Virus record (IMG/VR): IMGVR_UViG_3300020214_000087
Coordinates: 1 to 28,357 of that record
Length of the DNA stretch: 28,357 nucleotides
From: a virus
Strand: one strand, 5' to 3'
Both the position numbers and the translations under genes were made by a program. The notes below the pieces were generated by a model. It did not search any database, was not told the origin of the DNA, and worked only from the letters and a program-made list of their open reading frames with translations. Every line of letters starts with the position of its first letter. Within the stretch, counting starts at the first letter, position 1. Below, piece after piece: positions 1,776-7,657 of this stretch.

Positions 1776-2438
1776 TTGGCAAAGCGATTTAAAAACCGCT
1801 GGCTGAAGTTCCTCTCGACGCCGGCGCCGTGGGATTACGACCCGGTGCGCGAGGCCGAGCGCGAGCAGGCGGCGATCGACTTGGCGGCGGTCAAGGAAGC
1901 GGCTCGGCGGCGACGGGGGCGGCATGGCCAGCCAGGCGGATGGAGCAGGGACAAGCAAAAGAGGTCCCGGCATTGGAACAAGGGGCTGCCGCCGGGCGGC
2001 GCGCGGGCAAAGCGATTGAGCCGGCGGCTGAACGAGCGGCAAGCGACATCTCGCAAGGCTAAGATGCGAGCCGCATGGCTTAGGCGCCAGGCGGTCGACA
2101 AGGCGGCGCGATCGAGCAGGGCCGTGTTGCGTCGAGATCCTGAGACCGGCCGGACGGCTAGATTGCGGTATCCGTGGCCGGCGGGACCGAATGCCGCGCT
2201 GGCGCTTGCGTTCCGGCAGGGCGAGTGGATTGACGCGCCGGAGCTCGGCCGGCGATCGGGGCTTGGGAAAACGACCTGGCCGATGTTGTATCAGCGGTTT
2301 GAACCGCTGGGGCTGGTCGAGAAGGGCCGGAACGCGGATTGGCGCTCGGGGACGATCGGGCGCGGCGTGCCGCGCTATCTATGGCGCTTGACGGCCGCCG
2401 GGCAGGAATACCGGGCGGCCGTCGAGATTATAGGTTAG
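1776..2438 (+). CDS. Hypothetical basic protein with possible C-terminal winged helix
   Basis: The protein has 220 residues with a TTG start. No ATG in this frame would give a longer product, and the ribosome binding site is only a loose GGAACCCGGA. Residues 1-130 are extremely rich in Arg and Lys and low in hydrophobics, so probably bind nucleic acid. Residues 145-215 (ALAFRQGEWIDAPELGRRSG, then LEKGR-type basic turn, RYLWRLTAAGQEYR) read like a winged-helix DNA-binding domain. It follows the putative origin, so a replication or regulatory role is plausible. I do not recognise the family. Its stop codon overlaps that of the convergent gene at 2435-2644. Confidence 0.6.
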   Translation: MAKRFKNRWLKFLSTPAPWDYDPVREAEREQAAIDLAAVKEAARRRRGRHGQPGGWSRDKQKRSRHWNKGLPPGGARAKRLSRRLNERQATSRKAKMRAAWLRRQAVDKAARSSRAVLRRDPETGRTARLRYPWPAGPNAALALAFRQGEWIDAPELGRRSGLGKTTWPMLYQRFEPLGLVEKGRNADWRSGTIGRGVPRYLWRLTAAGQEYRAAVEIIG

Positions 2439-2644
2439 GCGGCGTAAGCGTATCGAGGCCACGTGCCTGCGACGCGGGCGCCGTGAGTGTTTTCCGCAAG
2501 GAACTGTTCGAATCTCGCGCGCTCTTGTTTGGCGATGCGGTAGGTGAATATGTAGCCGTCATATGCGACCTGACAGAAACCATGACGGGGGCGGGAGGGG
2601 GCGGTAGCGGCCTTTTGGATTGAGACGATTCGCGTGTCGAGCAT
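2435..2644 (-). CDS. Hypothetical small protein (69 aa), last gene of leftward array
   Basis: The chosen ATG at 2644 has a good ribosome binding site, AAAGGAACC, nine bases upstream; a longer frame to 2737 lacks one and crosses the hairpin region at 2695-2740. The product contains GFCQVAYDGYIFTYRIAKQERARFEQFLAEN, shown here only as its gist: an aromatic beta-like stretch and a charged helix. No family is recognised. It ends tail-to-tail with the rightward gene, the two stop codons overlapping, and is the distal end of the leftward operon. Confidence 0.6.
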   Translation of the reverse strand: MLDTRIVSIQKAATAPSRPRHGFCQVAYDGYIFTYRIAKQERARFEQFLAENTHGARVAGTWPRYAYAA

Positions 2645-2694
2645 AATCGCGGTTCCTTTGTTGCTTGCTACAGGACAGCATGTTTTTAGACAAT

Positions 2695-2740
2695 ACGCAA
2701 GCGATTTAGTTTGCGTCCGGTCATGGCGTTTTGCCATGAC
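2695..2740. other. Two adjacent hairpins between leftward genes
   Basis: GTCATGGC (2720-2727) and GCCATGAC (2733-2740) form a perfect 8-bp stem with a 5-base loop, starting a few bases beyond the stop codon of the 2745-3005 gene. ACGCAA (2695-2700) and TTGCGT (2711-2716) form a second 6-bp stem. No U-tract follows in the leftward direction, so this may be an RNA-processing or stability element rather than a classical terminator. Confidence 0.45.
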
Positions 2741-2744
2741 GCAC

Positions 2745-3005
2745 CTAATCGAAATAGCGGGTTTGCGGATCGAAATGCCCAGGCCAGCACGGGCACGGGC
2801 GAATCTCGAATTGCGGATCGTCGCCCCAAATCTGGCGGATCGTGTCGCGGCTGTTGTTCTGTGTTACTGCCTCAAGCCACTCTTGCGCGGCCATCGGGCC
2901 GTCGAAAGTGTTGCGGCCTTGGGCCGGGCGCATAAGCACGCGCTCGCCATGGGCGTTGACGTAGGTTGCGACGTAGCGGGTAACGCTTGCGGGTTTGTCG
3001 TTCAT
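2745..3005 (-). CDS. Hypothetical small phage protein (86 aa)
   Basis: The ATG at 3005 is chosen because the AGGT of an AAAGGT ribosome binding site lies eight bases before it, inside the shared ACCT-AGAA-AGGT hairpin (3014-3025). An upstream in-frame start at 3053 has no such site. The product has a small beta-like N-terminal part (RYVATYVNAHGERVL), the helix MAAQEWLEAVTQ, and a C-terminal CPCWPGHFD segment with two cysteines and a histidine. The function is unknown; small accessory phage proteins of this type often act early in infection, which is inference here. Confidence 0.65.
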   Translation of the reverse strand: MNDKPASVTRYVATYVNAHGERVLMRPAQGRNTFDGPMAAQEWLEAVTQNNSRDTIRQIWGDDPQFEIRPCPCWPGHFDPQTRYFD

Positions 3006-3049
3006 GGCGTTTGACCTTTCTAGGTTCCGAGTGGATAGTTTTGTGAAAG

Positions 3050-3268
3050 TCAACTCTCAGGATAAGCCTTTGCCGTATCCCATGCGACATGCGGCCAGTT
3101 CTGCGGCTCTCCGGTATCCCGCGCTCGCCCCAGGCGAAAGCGGTTTTCATGGTTGAAGCACGCGCGGCAAAGAATCAGATTGCCGCCGCCGCCAAGCGGA
3201 TAGAGCTTCACGGGCGCGCTTGCCGATGTGCAATGCGAGCCGTCGCAGGAGGGGTTAAGGTTGCTCAT
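3050..3268 (-). CDS. Hypothetical Cys-rich small protein, possible zinc binder (72 aa)
   Basis: The start at 3268 lies four bases after the stop of the gene before it, and a GGACG just before that stop is the only ribosome-binding-like sequence, so translational coupling is likely. Cysteines at about 8, 13, 35 and 38 (CDGSHC and LILCRACF) could hold one zinc ion, and the LYPLGGGGNL turn between them is distinctive. I recall similar short proteins in other phages but know no function for them. Confidence 0.65.
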   Translation of the reverse strand: MSNLNPSCDGSHCTSASAPVKLYPLGGGGNLILCRACFNHENRFRLGRARDTGEPQNWPHVAWDTAKAYPES

Positions 3269-3272
3269 GGCG

Positions 3273-3488
3273 TCACGTCCATTCTGCGCTGTAACGCGGC
3301 GTGTCAATCTGGCCTTTGCGGTTGAGCATCCGCACAATATGGCTAGGCGGCATCCGCAACAGCGGCGCGGCTTCGTCCGGCGTAAACCAGCCAATAGCGT
3401 CCTTAGGTGCGCCGCCGTGTGTGTATGGTTGTTTCCAGATAACAAGCAGCGGTTCGCCGTTCTCATATTCCGTCGGAACGAAAGTCAT
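3273..3488 (-). CDS. Small putative helix-turn-helix protein (71 aa)
   Basis: GAGGAGGAAGAAC just before the ATG at 3488 is one of the strongest ribosome binding sites of the array. The C-terminal half, WFTPDEAAPLLRMPPSHIVR followed by MLNRKGQIDTPRY, has the pattern of MerR/excisionase-type helix-turn-helix proteins (T-P-D-E-A-A-x-L-L, turn, recognition helix, then a wing). It may therefore bind DNA as a regulator or an excisionase-like factor, although no integrase is present in the window. The N-terminal 30 residues are a short beta-rich extension. Confidence 0.65.
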   Translation of the reverse strand: MTFVPTEYENGEPLLVIWKQPYTHGGAPKDAIGWFTPDEAAPLLRMPPSHIVRMLNRKGQIDTPRYSAEWT

Positions 3489-3501
3489 GGTTCTTCCTCC
3501 T

Positions 3502-4125
3502 CTACTTGTAAACCGCAATGCCGCGGGAATAGTAAGCCGACACGTCGCCGTGTTCCATCCAAATCTCCGGCGAGCGTGACGCTGCTACGGTTGCGGCATA
3601 GGCTTCAGATTCGGCGCGGGTAGCAAATTTCCTGCTAGTGGCGCGCTCCATCCCGCCGCCGCCTTGGCCGTTTTCGTCGCTCTTGCACCAAACGCCGAAA
3701 GCGTTTGGCACGTCGCCGGGACGCAGTATGTACAGCGCGCACCCGCGCGGATCGGTTTGCACGTAGGCTTGTAAGCCGGGATAGCGCGCGAGGATAGCGG
3801 CCAGGCGCTTGCGGGCGCCGGCTTCGCGGTCGGGAATCGCGGACCATGCCCGCGGATCGCTTGCCGCCAAGTAGCGGGATCGCGCGTCGAAATAGCGCGG
3901 GCGTCCGGTCTTTTCGTCGCGTTCGATGTGTCCGTCGCCGTCGCCGCATTCGAGCTCGTGCCAGCGATGCAGCGTCATTGAGATCCGGCGCAAGGCTTCC
4001 GCGTCGGCGCGAGCTTCGTTGTAGTTTGCGCCGGTTTGCTGATTTGGCGTGGCTTGGAGCAATGCGAGCGTAAGCCGCGAAAGCATTGATTCGGTGTCCT
4101 GGATATCGCGTTTCGACCTTGCCAT
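3502..4125 (-). CDS. Hypothetical phage protein (207 aa)
   Basis: The ATG at 4125 follows AAAGGAAACATC, a clear ribosome binding site; an ATG five codons earlier lies inside that site and is rejected. Features in order are a helical N-terminal region (residues 10-60) ending in LHRWHELECGDGDG, a segment RPRYFDARSRYLA with a charged surroundings, and a C-terminal alpha/beta part with LYILRPGDVPNAFGVWC and a FATRAESEAYA helix. Proteins with the RWHELECGDG signature occur in many tailed phages as uncharacterised proteins; that is from memory. No catalytic motif is evident. Confidence 0.7.
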   Translation of the reverse strand: MARSKRDIQDTESMLSRLTLALLQATPNQQTGANYNEARADAEALRRISMTLHRWHELECGDGDGHIERDEKTGRPRYFDARSRYLAASDPRAWSAIPDREAGARKRLAAILARYPGLQAYVQTDPRGCALYILRPGDVPNAFGVWCKSDENGQGGGGMERATSRKFATRAESEAYAATVAASRSPEIWMEHGDVSAYYSRGIAVYK

Positions 4126-4162
4126 GATGTTTCCTTTCATGTCCTATGTTTCGACAATGCGA

Positions 4163-4179
4163 GCGCACTTAGAGTGCGC
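4163..4179. other. Hairpin spanning the stop codon of the 29-aa gene
   Basis: GCGCACT (4163-4169) and AGTGCGC (4173-4179) are perfect complements with a 3-base loop. On the - strand the TAA stop of the tiny upstream gene falls in the loop and the adjoining stem base. No U-tract follows. It resembles a 3'-end protecting hairpin more than a terminator. Confidence 0.45.
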
Positions 4180-4258
4180 CGCAGATGACCAGCGCGACTA
4201 GGTAGCCGGTTAGCAGCATGGTCGCGCCGTAGCGGGCGAGGAGTCGGGCGAGTATCAT
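4169..4258 (-). CDS. Tiny putative membrane protein (29 aa)
   Basis: The ATG overlaps the TGA stop of the preceding gene as ATGA, a typical translational-coupling arrangement. The peptide starts MILARLLARYGA and continues TMLLTGYLVALVICGAL: a short basic N-terminus followed by about 17 uncharged hydrophobic residues, enough for one transmembrane helix. Such single-helix phage peptides can act in lysis, superinfection exclusion or host-envelope interference, none of which can be assigned here. Its brevity keeps confidence moderate. Confidence 0.5.
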   Translation of the reverse strand: MILARLLARYGATMLLTGYLVALVICGAL

Positions 4259-4380
4259 GCGGCCCGGACTCGCATCGGCATGAGAACATGCGTCGCGTGG
4301 CCGGTTTCTTCGCGGCTCATGGCGTCGTAGAGATCGCCAGCGGGGACGTGAACGGTCGCGGTTTGAGTTTTGTCTAGCAT
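4255..4380 (-). CDS. Hypothetical small protein (41 aa)
   Basis: GAAAGGAAAGCACATC directly before the ATG at 4380 is a strong ribosome binding site. The product contains VHVPAGDLYDAMSREETGHA and ends in MRVRAA; no domain is recognised. Its stop overlaps the start of the 29-aa membrane peptide, so the two are probably translated together. The leader contains TCGAAACA 24 bases before the ATG, a motif shared with two other genes of the array. Confidence 0.55.
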   Translation of the reverse strand: MLDKTQTATVHVPAGDLYDAMSREETGHATHVLMPMRVRAA

Positions 4381-4439
4381 GATGTGCTTTCCTTTCGTTC
4401 GGTTGTTTCGAGCATGCTTATCCGGGGGGCCATCATGGC

Positions 4440-4655
4440 TCACACCTCCTCGATCCACACGCCGTCCCGGCCGGTTTCGCGGCCCGACAATTCCATCGTT
4501 CCGCCGGAAAATACGCGATCCTTGGCGCGACCGCGCATGGTGCGCAGAGACACGCCGCAAAGTTCCGCCGCGTAGGCCAGCGCGGCGTCAAAATCGCCAA
4601 ATTCCCGTTCGCGGAACCGGCCGCCGTCACGATTGCGGTGCACGATGTAGGTCAT
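4440..4655 (-). CDS. Hypothetical small protein (71 aa)
   Basis: The start at 4655 is supported by AGGGAGAGACAG immediately upstream; the stop of the preceding 36-aa frame forms part of this site (TAGGGAGAG). The protein begins MTYIVHRNRDGGRF, has a helix FDAALAYAAELCGVS, and ends with a beta-like WIEEV. The pattern suggests a small alpha/beta fold. No function is recognised. Confidence 0.6.
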   Translation of the reverse strand: MTYIVHRNRDGGRFREREFGDFDAALAYAAELCGVSLRTMRGRAKDRVFSGGTMELSGRETGRDGVWIEEV

Positions 4656-4665
4656 CTGTCTCTCC

Positions 4666-4776
4666 CTAGCGGGCTTGCTCGCGCGTCGCGTCATAGCGTA
4701 GGGGCTTGTAGCACTCGACCGCTGGCATCCAGATCGGGCCGACCAGATAGCCGGATATTTCGATTTGCAGGTTCAT
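4666..4776 (-). CDS. Very small hypothetical protein (36 aa)
   Basis: A complete frame starts at the ATG at 4776, with AGAGGG eight bases upstream, and ends 10 bases before the next start. The peptide begins MNLQIEISGYLVGPIWMPAV and ends in a charged tail with DATREQAR. The good ribosome binding site, tight packing between neighbours and the shared TCGAAACA leader motif at 4800-4807 argue that it is real. Function unknown. Confidence 0.5.
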   Translation of the reverse strand: MNLQIEISGYLVGPIWMPAVECYKPLRYDATREQAR

Positions 4777-4821
4777 GGATATATCCCTCTTGTGTCCGTT
4801 GTTTCGATGTTGTGGGCGCGG

Positions 4822-5340
4822 TTACGCTTTCATGCGGCGGCACCGAATGATTTGCGTGTTGCCGCCATACTGTACGCCATGCCATGGTTTGCCGTCCGGG
4901 CCGGTAAACCATGCGTCATAGCGATAGCGCGCGATGTTGTGCGCGCCGCGCTTGACGCGGCACTTGATCGAAAGCGTGCCGGGCCAATTGGTCACGTGAC
5001 CATCGGCGAAGGGATAGCTTCGATCCTTGATCGGGTCATGCGTGAGGTAGAGAACGGCGCGACCATCGGTCAGCATGTCGGCGCGGTCGGTCTCGCCAGC
5101 GCAATCATAGCAGACCATTTCGCCGGCCCGCGCGACATGGCCGCGATCGACCATGTGTTGAGTCGTTACGCCATAGCCCGTGCCGCCGCCATCGAATTTG
5201 AGCGGCTTATGCCCGCCGCAGCGATGGCACATAAACGTGGCCGGCGCGAATTGCTTGGCGAAGCGAAAGGCGCCCGGCATAAGCGGCGCCAAGTCAAGCG
5301 CGGCTTGCAGCGCGACGTAGGAGTCGAAATTGCGAGACAT
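4822..5340 (-). CDS. Hypothetical phage protein with two CxxC pairs (172 aa)
   Basis: The ATG at 5340 is preceded seven bases earlier by the shared SD hairpin ACCT-TGAA-AGGT (5348-5359); an earlier GTG at 5349 is too close to it. The N-terminal half has MCHRCGG (near residue 38) and MVCYDCAG (near residue 76), a likely zinc ribbon. The C-terminal half has FADGHVTNWPGTL, HNIARYRYDAWFTGPDG and WHGVQYGGNTQIIRCRR. The latter signature occurs in uncharacterised proteins of many tailed phages, as far as I recall. It is probably a conserved accessory phage protein; its activity is unknown. Confidence 0.75.
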   Translation of the reverse strand: MSRNFDSYVALQAALDLAPLMPGAFRFAKQFAPATFMCHRCGGHKPLKFDGGGTGYGVTTQHMVDRGHVARAGEMVCYDCAGETDRADMLTDGRAVLYLTHDPIKDRSYPFADGHVTNWPGTLSIKCRVKRGAHNIARYRYDAWFTGPDGKPWHGVQYGGNTQIIRCRRMKA

Positions 5341-5405
5341 GATGTTCACCTTTCAAGGTTGCGATTGTTAGAGTGTAAAGCGTGAGAGGGTAGAGGAGCC
5401 AAGCC

Positions 5406-5906
5406 CTAGGTCAAGAGCTCGCTTGCGTATCCGGCAAAATACTTGCCACGAATGCAACCTAGCATGTCGGGCAAGTCGCGAAAGTCGAATTGCTCGGAAT
5501 GCCGGCGCACATAGGCGATACGCTCGCGCCATGAATAGCAGTCGCGCCATACTTGCGCCGCGGCCGCATGTTCGCGTTCGGACCAATCGGATTCGTCAAG
5601 CACAGGATAATCCGCTAGGCGTGCGCATGCTTCGTCTGCGATCTGTAGCGCGCGATCGGACTCGGCGGTGCCATCGGCTTCGAGCGCAATCCATTCCACC
5701 CATCCACAGGCCCAATGATTTTCGCGCACCACGGTCACAAGATCCGACTCGCCACCTAGCAGCGCCAGCATGGCGTCAAAATTGGATTCTTCAAGGCAAT
5801 CGGAATCGCGAGACTGTCCAACGCCGGCGCTATAATGATTGGGCCAAACGGCGCCGAAATAGTCGCGCGGCATTGACCATTTTTTGAGGAGTCGGGGCTC
5901 ATACAT
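5406..5906 (-). CDS. Hypothetical conserved phage protein downstream of ribozyme A (166 aa)
   Basis: The start at 5906 lies six bases after the AGGT of an SD hairpin (5913-5924) and exactly 50 bases after the predicted cleavage site of the hammerhead at 5929-5983. The protein includes DYFGAVWPNHYSAG, SRDSDCLEESNFDAML, ENHWACGWVEWIAL and a helical C-terminus with VWRDCYSWRERIAYVRR. Proteins with the HWACGWVEWIA and LEESNF signatures recur in phages as unknowns. No enzymatic motif is evident. Its mRNA would be released by ribozyme cleavage with a 5' hairpin. Confidence 0.75.
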   Translation of the reverse strand: MYEPRLLKKWSMPRDYFGAVWPNHYSAGVGQSRDSDCLEESNFDAMLALLGGESDLVTVVRENHWACGWVEWIALEADGTAESDRALQIADEACARLADYPVLDESDWSEREHAAAAQVWRDCYSWRERIAYVRRHSEQFDFRDLPDMLGCIRGKYFAGYASELLT

Positions 5907-6010
5907 GGCATAACCTTTCCAGGTTGGTGGACTCGTCAGGCGCCGCGTGACGGCGCGACACGGGCTTAGCCCGTGTTTCGTCCTAGGGATTCACAATCTC
6001 GCCAGTCTCG
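5904..6010. repeat. 107-bp direct repeat, copy A
   Basis: This segment is repeated at 6427-6533 with a single difference (position 5926). It runs from the start codon of one leftward gene through the SD hairpin and the ribozyme into the last eight codons of the upstream gene, so both upstream genes end in ETGEIVNP. The 523-bp spacing equals one gene plus one ribozyme. Confidence 0.97.
5929..5983 (-). ncRNA. Type II hammerhead self-cleaving ribozyme, copy A
   Basis: Read on the - strand from 5983: GGAC (stem II strand), GAA, stem III ACACGGGC-UAA-GCCCGUGU (8 bp), C (cleavage residue, 5957), stem I GCGCCG-UCACG-CGGCGC (6 bp), the invariant CUGACGA (CUGANGA), then GUCC closing stem II. Every catalytic-core base of the hammerhead consensus is present and all stems pair perfectly. 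Stem II is the open one, which defines type II. Cleavage is predicted between 5957 and 5956. The first G is also the last base of the TAG of the gene at 5983-6429. Self-cleavage has not been shown here, but the match is hard to explain otherwise. Confidence 0.93.
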
Positions 6011-6429
6011 CCTCTTTTTGCGAACATTTCGACCGTAGCGGCCGCGTGCGAAACATAGCGATTCGTCGTCGTGCCGTATTCCATCAAGCGCCGCATGGTT
6101 TGCGCGTCATAGGGCAATGTGGGCGCAAAGAAAAACGCGGCCAGTGCCGCAGGCGAATCGGCATAGGCTTCCACAATCTCAGCTGGGTTAACCCAGCGCT
6201 CGAATGCGAGCGTAGCAGACGCATGTAGCACCATAGCTAGAACGTACCCTGCACAATCGTCGCCGTCGGAATCGCAAGAAGCAATGCGGCCAAGCGAACG
6301 GCATTGCCGGAGTTGGCCGGCGTCATTCCAAATGAAAAAGGTCCCGGCTTTGATTGTGCGGGTCGCAGAACCTAGCAACGTGGCATTGGGCGCGATAACC
6401 TTGCGGTTGTCAATTTGGATCGTTCGCAT
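5983..6429 (-). CDS. Hypothetical protein between ribozymes B and A (148 aa)
   Basis: The ATG at 6429 follows the SD hairpin (6436-6447) by six bases and lies 50 bases after the predicted cut of ribozyme B. The product starts MRTIQIDNRKVIAPNATLLG, contains CDSDGDDCAGYVLAMVLHAS and a run rich in Ala and Phe (ALAAFFFAPTLPYDAQTMRRL), and ends ETGEIVNP, a tail shared with the next gene upstream because the repeat covers it. No domain is recognised. The TAG stop contributes its G to ribozyme A, so this mRNA would end in the stem III hairpin after cleavage. Confidence 0.7.
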   Translation of the reverse strand: MRTIQIDNRKVIAPNATLLGSATRTIKAGTFFIWNDAGQLRQCRSLGRIASCDSDGDDCAGYVLAMVLHASATLAFERWVNPAEIVEAYADSPAALAAFFFAPTLPYDAQTMRRLMEYGTTTNRYVSHAAATVEMFAKRGETGEIVNP

Positions 6430-6533
6430 GGCATAACCTTTCCAGGTTTGTGGACTCGTCAGGCGCCGCGTGACGGCGCGACACGGGCTTAGCCCGTGTT
6501 TCGTCCTAGGGATTCACAATCTCGCCAGTCTCG
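6427..6533. repeat. 107-bp direct repeat, copy B
   Basis: This is nearly identical (one mismatch) to 5904-6010 and contains ribozyme B, the SD hairpin, a start codon and the last codons of the gene at 6506-7042. The inner 66 bases (6444-6509) are also identical to 7057-7122. Confidence 0.97.
6452..6506 (-). ncRNA. Type II hammerhead self-cleaving ribozyme, copy B
   Basis: The 55 bases are identical to copy A: GGAC/GUCC stem II, GAAA, stem III with UAA loop, GUC cleavage triplet, stem I with UCACG loop and CUGACGA. Predicted cleavage is between 6480 and 6479. It separates the genes at 6506-7042 and 5983-6429, and its first base is the last base of the upstream TAG. Confidence 0.93.
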
Positions 6534-7042
6534 ACGCTATAGACCAGATAGGGTGCCTTGCCTTCCTCGAACCAATCATGTCCAAGGCAATAGGTTTTTG
6601 CGCCGTCGTCGATCGACGAGTCGAGATTGCCGGCGCCAGGGACGCATGGCGAACAGAATTCCGCGAATGTATAGAACGGACTCGCCAGCACCATGATATC
6701 CGAGTCAAGGCAATCGACGAGATTGTATCCATCGCCATCGTATGCCCCGGCTTGCGGCTCGTCGCCGAAGCAATCGCCAGAGTCGAGAATGTGCTGACAC
6801 GACTCGCACACATAGTCGGCGCAACCGCGGCCATACTGTTCCCATGCGTCCATTTCGTCGGTAGCGTTCTCATACGCCACGACCGCGTTTCCGCACTTCG
6901 GGCATGTCGGCTCGCCATAGTCCGGTTCGGCGCTATCGAACCAAGCCTGCGAAACGGAATGCTTCGAAATGACGCCATAGCGAATGCCGGTTTTAACGTC
7001 GACATTCGTTCGACCTAGGCCATAATCGATTCCTGCGGGCAT
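6506..7042 (-). CDS. Hypothetical conserved phage protein with CxxC pairs (178 aa)
   Basis: The ATG at 7042 is preceded by AGGTGACACA within the SD hairpin ACCT-AGAT-AGGT (7049-7060) and lies 50 bases after the cleavage site of ribozyme C. The N-terminus MPAGIDYGLGRTNVDVKTGI and then RYGVISKHSVSQAW are typical of a phage protein I have seen only as uncharacterised. CPKCGN (near residue 47) and CESCQH (near residue 79) suggest a zinc ribbon; a further FCSPCVPGAGNL lies near residue 130. It shares the ETGEIVNP end with the following gene through the 107-bp repeat. Confidence 0.75.
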   Translation of the reverse strand: MPAGIDYGLGRTNVDVKTGIRYGVISKHSVSQAWFDSAEPDYGEPTCPKCGNAVVAYENATDEMDAWEQYGRGCADYVCESCQHILDSGDCFGDEPQAGAYDGDGYNLVDCLDSDIMVLASPFYTFAEFCSPCVPGAGNLDSSIDDGAKTYCLGHDWFEEGKAPYLVYSVETGEIVNP

Positions 7043-7056
7043 TGTGTCACCTATCT

Positions 7057-7122
7057 AGGTTTGTGGACTCGTCAGGCGCCGCGTGACGGCGCGACACGGG
7101 CTTAGCCCGTGTTTCGTCCTAG
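7057..7122. repeat. 66-bp repeat core, copy C
   Basis: These bases are identical to 6444-6509 and include the whole ribozyme plus part of the leader. The sequence on either side (start codon region and upstream gene 3' end) is different from copies A and B, so this copy marks the ribozyme as the conserved core of the repeat. Confidence 0.97.
7065..7119 (-). ncRNA. Type II hammerhead self-cleaving ribozyme, copy C
   Basis: The 55 bases are identical to copies A and B, in different flanks. Predicted cleavage is between 7093 and 7092, which would leave a 50-base leader before the ATG at 7042. The first base is the G of the TAG that ends the gene at 7119-7412. Conservation of exactly the ribozyme in diverged flanks supports selection on the RNA. 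Confidence 0.93.
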
Positions 7123-7412
7123 CGTGTGATGGGCTGCCCGCCAAAATGGCACAAGCCAGTGAAAGGCTTGCCGAAATAGTTATAGGCCATGTAATAGCCC
7201 TTGGTGCCATTATCATAGCGACCAAATACGCGGCCAGACACCATAAGCCAGAATGTGCCAGTTTCAACCGAAATTGCGCCACGGCCCAAGTCGTCTGCGA
7301 TACATAGCGTGTATTGCAGCCCGTTGATAGCCTGCACGCAGACCAGCACGCCACGCGTATAGCGAGTCGCTGGGATAGCGAAGGAGATGCATTTAGAGGC
7401 GTGGTCGTACAT
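7119..7412 (-). CDS. Hypothetical small protein upstream of ribozyme C (97 aa)
   Basis: The ATG at 7412 lies seven bases after AGGT of the SD hairpin ACCT-GGAA-AGGT (7420-7431), which itself sits in the last codons of the preceding gene. The protein is rich in aromatic and glycine residues (FWLMVSGRVFGRYDNGTKGY, then YMAYNYFGKPFTGLCHFGG), suggesting a beta-rich fold. No family is recognised. After cleavage its mRNA would end in the stem III hairpin of ribozyme C. Confidence 0.65.
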   Translation of the reverse strand: MYDHASKCISFAIPATRYTRGVLVCVQAINGLQYTLCIADDLGRGAISVETGTFWLMVSGRVFGRYDNGTKGYYMAYNYFGKPFTGLCHFGGQPITR

Positions 7413-7417
7413 TTTAG

Positions 7418-7657
7418 CTACCTTTCCAGGTTTGCGGCGGTGCGTTCGAAGCCGACGTAATGCGGACACTCGACGACGGAGGTGCTCAGGCGCTGCGCCT
7501 CGTGCGCTGCGATGGCGCGCGCACTCTCAATCCGACCAACACTGATGAAGCACGCGCCGAGCCGCGAAGCCGGATCGGCAGTCGGATTGGATGGTTCGTG
7601 GCCGACGTAGAACCGCGTCTCGCCAGCCCAAGTCATCGGCTTGATATAGATCGCCAT
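7418..7657 (-). CDS. Hypothetical small protein, first gene of leftward array (79 aa)
   Basis: The ATG at 7657 follows GGGAGGGAAGGGAT, a strong ribosome binding site. The protein begins MAIYIKPMTWAGETRFYVGH, has an alanine-rich helix ESARAIAAHEAQRLS and ends FERTAANLER. Function unknown. It is the promoter-proximal gene of the leftward unit; the divergent region to its right carries a perfect dyad (7722-7741). Confidence 0.65.
   Translation of the reverse strand: MAIYIKPMTWAGETRFYVGHEPSNPTADPASRLGACFISVGRIESARAIAAHEAQRLSTSVVECPHYVGFERTAANLER

Follow-up and report, generated by a model that had tools for sequence, protein, structure and literature searches.

The DNA analysed here, hereafter the window, spans 28,357 bp and is the record of an uncultivated virus; it encodes a large terminase, a small terminase and a primase/AAA protein. 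It also contains a counter-oriented accessory operon with about nine gene junctions, whose products are small orphan proteins, almost none of which match PHROGs or Pfam (Table 1). Three of these junctions carry an identical 55-nt sequence, which a preliminary description of the window presented as three identical and complete type II hammerhead ribozymes.

Table 1. Features of the accessory operon and of its repeated junctions, in the order of transcription.
Feature	Position	Strand	Remarks
Counter-oriented accessory operon holding the array	2435..7657	-	between primase/AAA region and small terminase gene
Duplicated 112-nt junction unit (gene 3' end, ribozyme, leader)	5904..6015; 6427-6538; 7040-7151	-	
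Orphan gene before copy 1	7119..7412	-	no PHROGs or Pfam match
TAG stop overlapping stem II, copy 1	7119..7121	-	predicted contact A 7120, partner U 7086
Putative type II hammerhead copy 1 (upstream-most in transcription)	7065..7119	-	predicted cut 7093/7092
Gene between copies 1 and 2	6506..7042	-	178 aa, Cys pairs CPKC/CESC
TAG stop overlapping stem II, copy 2	6506..6508	-	predicted contact A 6507, partner U 6473
Putative type II hammerhead copy 2	6452..6506	-	predicted cut 6480/6479
Orphan gene between copies 2 and 3	5983..6429	-	C-terminal TGEIVNP
TAG stop overlapping stem II, copy 3	5983..5985	-	predicted contact A 5984, partner U 5950
Putative type II hammerhead copy 3	5929..5983	-	predicted cut 5957/5956
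Gene after copy 3	5406..5906	-	weak PHROG 4313 / 3906 match

The repeated sequence is part of a larger, 112-nt junction unit, which is 97% identical between 5904-6015 and 6427-6538 and 75% identical for 7040-7151. Because this unit takes in the final codons of the gene upstream, the C-terminus TGEIVNP is common to two unrelated proteins, those encoded at 6506-7042 and 5983-6429. The 6506-7042 protein terminates exactly at the TAG of the ribozyme, and its relatives in loci L238 and L239, which have no ribozyme, are three residues longer (NPKAD and LPKEE). In L238, L239 and L360, related genes have plain hairpins, not ribozymes, at their junctions. Provisionally, the two relatives suggest, in the simplest reading, that the ribozyme unit brought a stop codon of its own when it arrived, and that a copy later reached the next junction. 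No diverged ribozyme was found at the same junction in homologues of the neighbouring genes. The leader that follows the ribozyme, AACCTNGAAAGGT, recurs without a ribozyme before operon genes at 7420-7437, ~5340-5360 and ~3010-3025 (- strand), indicating that leader and ribozyme are separate modules.

The motif was not found in any of 80 loci of the terminase lineage, most of them partial genomes, or in any of 23 whole records, and linkage of the motif to the phage lineage was rejected on these counts. Being absent from the terminase lineage, the array appears to be dispensable. In L126, a related phage, other accessory genes are found at the same genome position. A repeated leader without a ribozyme, TTGTCGAATCATCAGAACACAACGGAGAGACA, occurs in L126 at ~2935, 4185 and 5208 (- strand) and resembles the tails that follow ribozymes elsewhere; the same phage has a gene at ~2020-2260 (- strand) with tandem repeats of the kind GGCACCGCGACGGCTGGC, encoding a repetitive protein. 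In the window, a near-perfect hairpin (TTGTCGGAATGTCGGCAC...GTGCCGACATTCCGACAA, 1655-1701) lies just past the end of the primase/AAA gene, and the Rfam microRNA matches at this position reflect hairpin shape only.

Identity of the repeated element

The three copies share the layout GGAC-GAA-[ACACGGGC-UAA-GCCCGUGU]-C^-[GCGCCG-UCACG-CGGCGC]-CUGACGA-GUCC, where the caret marks the predicted cut. Both folding and alignment to a covariance model recovered three helices in every copy, namely stem III (8 bp) and stem I (6 bp), closed by UAA and UCACG loops respectively, and an open stem II. The catalytic core of hammerheads (CUGANGA, GAAA and an NUH triplet) is present in all three as CUGACGA, GAAA and GUC, with C17 at 7093, 6480 and 5957, a placement that bears out the cut sites predicted in the preliminary description. 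In each copy, the hammerhead fold is the minimum-energy fold (-30.5 kcal/mol, z -3.2 to -3.3), and the core pattern, with three occurrences in the window, did not occur in 100 dinucleotide shuffles. A covariance model built from 49 ribozymes of other phages, with the window excluded, matched exactly the three copies (59.6 bits, E 5e-12) and nothing in the rest of the window, and produced no match in 85 comparison loci. Coordinates, core and stems are therefore as first described, and the window copies can be assigned to type II hammerhead ribozymes as firmly as sequence allows.

A search with the Rfam Hammerhead_II family had been put forward as a check on this assignment, with the lack of a match as disproof. 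Formally, that outcome was obtained: even with E relaxed to 10, RF02276 matched nothing in the window, and the copies did not reach its gathering cut-off (37 bits). The miss is, however, uninformative, because this family is too narrow and also misses most of the obvious relatives; in 17 phage records, the phage-trained model recovered 98 copies, and RF02276 recovered 61 at E 0.001 and only 4 above the gathering score. A large and common group of phage ribozymes thus escapes RF02276, and their abundance is underestimated as a result.

In the published type II consensus (Perreault et al. 2011, PMC3088659), loop I and the 3' tail form a pseudoknot. A pairing of at least 4 bp between these regions was possible in 22% of the relatives, compared with 23% for permuted tails, and the pseudoknot was rejected for this subset of ribozymes. 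It is also absent from the window copies (2 bp), whose cleavage rate would consequently depend on the A-U contact examined below.

Relatives in other phages and their gene junctions

Using only the core letters and the GGAC/GUCC stem, and leaving stems I and III unconstrained, we retrieved at least 119 viral contigs, against three with the reversed pattern. Among the matches listed, 137 of the 149 distinct pairing-blind matches form both stems (at least 5 pairs), a figure that drops to 0.6 when the intervening letters are shuffled. The complete descriptor identified 199 motifs in the listed loci and the window, and none in reversed sequences. Overall, the motif occurs on at least 113 viral contigs other than the window, with up to 11 copies per phage in whole records, and is far commoner there than in bacterial genomes (32 motif stretches in 257 billion bases), the viral scans being an unsystematic sample in which related sequences are not independent. 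Identical ribozyme junctions were observed in L211, L213 and L235, assemblies named Phycicoccus, Streptomyces iakyrus and an Eggerthellaceae MAG; the likely cause is a phage common to them or sequencing libraries that contaminated one another.

In alignments of these sequences, which were chosen beforehand for pairing, we counted 183 two-sided changes compared with 55 after shuffling, and the signal was lost when the partners were slid. Likewise, the junctions that could be aligned across phages, also chosen for pairing, contained 13 compensatory and 6 one-sided pair-keeping changes, and a single breaking change. These compensatory changes show selection on the predicted RNA fold. The invariance of the core in the between-phage junction alignment was imposed by the descriptor and was not used as evidence, the pairing-blind test being used instead.

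The pairing-blind result also bears on whether these elements could be simple double hairpins, serving as RNA-end stabilisers or nuclease sites and non-catalytic in vivo. The plain hairpins at the related junctions of L238, L239 and L360 are compatible with such a role, which would nevertheless need no core letters, yet these very letters retrieve folded ribozymes. Moreover, the coupled tertiary contact is kept (see below), and no intrinsic terminator (GC hairpin followed by a U run) was found at the three ribozyme sites. We consider this the least probable of the explanations. In the comparison with RNase III sites, the longest helix in the window copies was 8 bp.

Copies are more alike within a contig than between contigs. 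This, together with the 112-nt duplication, through which one gene has received the 3' end of another's coding region, would fit a mobile or recombining gene cassette, in which identical repeats aid the exchange of accessory genes at the DNA level and catalysis is secondary. Homology between phages was continuous across 12% of the ribozyme junctions and across 36% of other junctions, as a cassette would predict, but nearby ribozyme-free junctions break homology just as often (18% continuous, p 0.57). The effect belongs, therefore, to the accessory region, and a role of the ribozyme as a recombination joint was rejected on this comparison. Given also the selection on the RNA fold, exchange of cassettes is quite an improbable purpose for the array.

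The ribozymes occupy a precise position between genes. In the window, all three are co-oriented and lie between a stop codon and a ribosome-binding site with its start codon; co-orientation was also general in contigs with several copies (38 of 38, among the matches listed). For the listed relatives, with genes of unannotated loci taken from our own simple predictions, a stop codon was found within -4 to +5 nt of the first base of the ribozyme in 69% of cases (4% at random places); 83% (against 19% at random places) had a ribosome-binding site with its start no more than 60 nt downstream. Reading frames abut the ribozyme in 67% of these relatives and end inside it in 4%, compared with 16% at random. 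The cultured Streptomyces phages Yara and ShakeNBake contain eight copies each, according to the model, in the stretches examined; the ten of these copies located by the descriptor are in gene gaps, without overlapping any CDS, and the next start is 13-17 nt downstream. A hairpin enclosing the ribosome-binding site (ACCU-NGAA-AGGU in the window) was considered as a further part of the system and rejected, because it follows 18% of the ribozymes against 25% in the comparison.

The tandem array at successive junctions was initially considered unusual, a view that did not hold up: more than 110 further viral contigs bear the motif, 38 of them in arrays, and passages of Perreault et al. 2011 (PMC3088659) had earlier described clustered prophage hammerheads that flank single genes or small blocks. 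Hammerheads of types I and III, too, are frequent at the gene junctions of phages (L240-L359, e.g. L249 and L261); in type I the stop codon is in or beside stem I, and in type III the ribozyme begins ~25-36 nt after the stop. The presence of these types at phage junctions weakens the idea that type II is favoured because no other type caps both ends, and two capped ends cannot be the whole reason for its use.

Stop codon and predicted tertiary contact

At the three window junctions, the TAG that overlaps stem II is in frame with the upstream gene. Among the relatives listed, 95% of the copies have A as the base directly 5' of the four-pair stem II. The share is still 89% where no stop codon abuts, indicating that the ribozyme itself favours this A. 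The A is coupled with the first base of loop I (next to position 1.6), a U: we counted 184 A-U, 11 U-A, 2 C-A and 1 G-G combinations, and no mixed ones. The coupling is thus exceptionless among the matches listed; the nominal p overstates independence, because many of the U-A cases belong to one related, actinobacterial subgroup whose loop is different.

In the crystal structure of the sTRSV hammerhead, the one tertiary base pair that both hammerhead classes have in common joins the last loop-II A to the U adjacent to 1.6 (PMC2553840). The coupled bases probably correspond to this conserved A-U Hoogsteen contact of natural hammerheads, and all three window copies have both the A and the U that it would take. 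The window copies resemble the sTRSV and Schistosoma hammerheads (PMC2553840) in the core, the three stems and this contact, but their stem II is open, as it is in type II, and the contact A consequently falls outside the ribozyme, in the upstream stop codon. We did not find an earlier description of the coupling between the A and the loop-I U, or of the stop-codon adenosine, and passages of Perreault et al. 2011 (PMC3088659) say nothing of a stop codon within a ribozyme.

Of 186 distinct copies, 97 have the contact A within the upstream stop codon (overlapping TAG in 55, TAA in 30 and TGA in 12), a count made by sequence in which the frame was not confirmed for every copy. TAG accounts for 34% of the stops at ribozymes, compared with 21% at other genes.

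Given the known size of its footprint, a ribosome terminating there would shield the A together with the GAA of the core and the 5' strand of stem II. Folding should then have to wait for ribosome release, which would make the end of translation and the folding of the ribozyme mutually exclusive. It is thus conceivable, if doubtful, that dicing of the transcript is gated by ribosomes, with the ribozyme folding only in the absence of a terminating ribosome, so that cutting would await, and report, translation of the upstream gene.

Probable transcript dicing and its alternatives

The preliminary description interpreted the array as an RNA-processing system that dices one transcript into separate mRNAs without a host nuclease. 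The co-oriented succession of stop codon, ribozyme, ribosome-binding site and start codon fits dicing well, which is a published hypothesis, plausible but unproven here; both the separate mRNAs and the independence from a host nuclease are presumed. With a probability of about 0.66, the best-supported outcome is that the ribozymes dice the accessory mRNA into separate, end-protected gene messages. This reading builds on ribozyme identity, placement and orientation, the overlap with the stop codon, the A-U coupling of the relatives and the hairpins at both product ends, all supported by the sequence.

The three ribozymes would be transcribed within one accessory-gene mRNA and, once the upstream stop is cleared of ribosomes, each would fold and cut itself after C17. 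This would release two single-gene RNAs (7092-6480 and 6479-5957, - strand) and, as only three of the junctions have a ribozyme, one leader RNA and one multi-gene RNA. After the cut, the upstream RNA would end in the stem III hairpin and a 2',3'-cyclic phosphate, and the downstream RNA would begin with a 5'-OH and the stem I hairpin, right ahead of the next ribosome-binding site. Accordingly placed hairpins were obtained when both predicted product ends were folded. We infer that cleavage takes place in the window phage, that it is timed relative to ribosomes and that it affects RNA stability and expression; the likely benefit would be to give each accessory gene its own lifetime and translation, whatever its neighbour.

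A comparable arrangement is found in the early mRNA of phage T7, where RNase III sites divide a polycistronic message and leave hairpin-bearing ends, a process that needs a host protein. The window copies likewise appear as junction elements that would divide a phage message and leave hairpin ends, but in their case the RNA would do the cutting on its own, in cis.

The ribozymes could, instead, be control elements whose cleavage opens an entry for decay and lowers downstream expression, perhaps under regulation by translation or a ligand. A precedent is glmS, also a self-cleaving element in a bacterial mRNA just before a gene, whose cleavage leaves a 5'-OH end that leads to mRNA decay by RNase J1 in B. 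subtilis (PMC3997798). Its fold is different from that of the window copies, and it is ligand-dependent (PMC3997798). A ribozyme right before the ribosome-binding site, overlapped by a stop codon, could indeed sense ribosomes; nevertheless, the downstream product would open with a strong hairpin of 6-7 bp, usually protective of 5' ends, and three identical copies with short, simple loops offer no space for a ligand domain. We therefore regard a control function as unlikely.

The end chemistry of hammerhead products (5'-OH and cyclic phosphate) suits ligases of the RtcB type. As the genes at 6506-7042 and 5983-6429 are each between two copies, two flanking cuts followed by closure by such a host ligase could generate circular single-gene mRNAs. 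Tight hairpins on both ends argue against closure, as do the many contigs with a single ribozyme, contigs often being fragments; also, circular or spliced products were sought, and none obtained, according to passages of Perreault et al. 2011 (PMC3088659). Circularization is accordingly very improbable.

Dicing into linear, end-protected messages is thus our preferred reading, and both this hypothesis and its first evidence are due to Perreault et al. 2011 (PMC3088659), passages of which report that three tandem arrangements cleaved themselves in vitro and one did so in E. coli, and that 4 of 18 consensus hammerheads were inactive. The array type was therefore already known. The window, with several same-strand copies flanking single genes in one phage genome, resembles those prophage arrays, in which several hammerheads, type II included, flank single phage genes; it differs from what these passages describe in that its copies are identical to each other and lack the pseudoknot between loop I and the tail. 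We found no later paper on phage hammerhead arrays in the literature searched, most subscription journals being outside it.

These results bear on the purpose of phage hammerhead arrays, a question since 2011, and offer three handles on it: the precise geometry of stop codon, ribozyme and ribosome-binding site; the A-U coupling, which can be mutated separately from the core; and the similar arrays of Yara and ShakeNBake, cultured phages of soil Streptomyces in which the question is testable. If ribosome-gated dicing were true, the stop-codon contact would tie self-cleavage to the termination of translation, a built-in link exploited by many phages.
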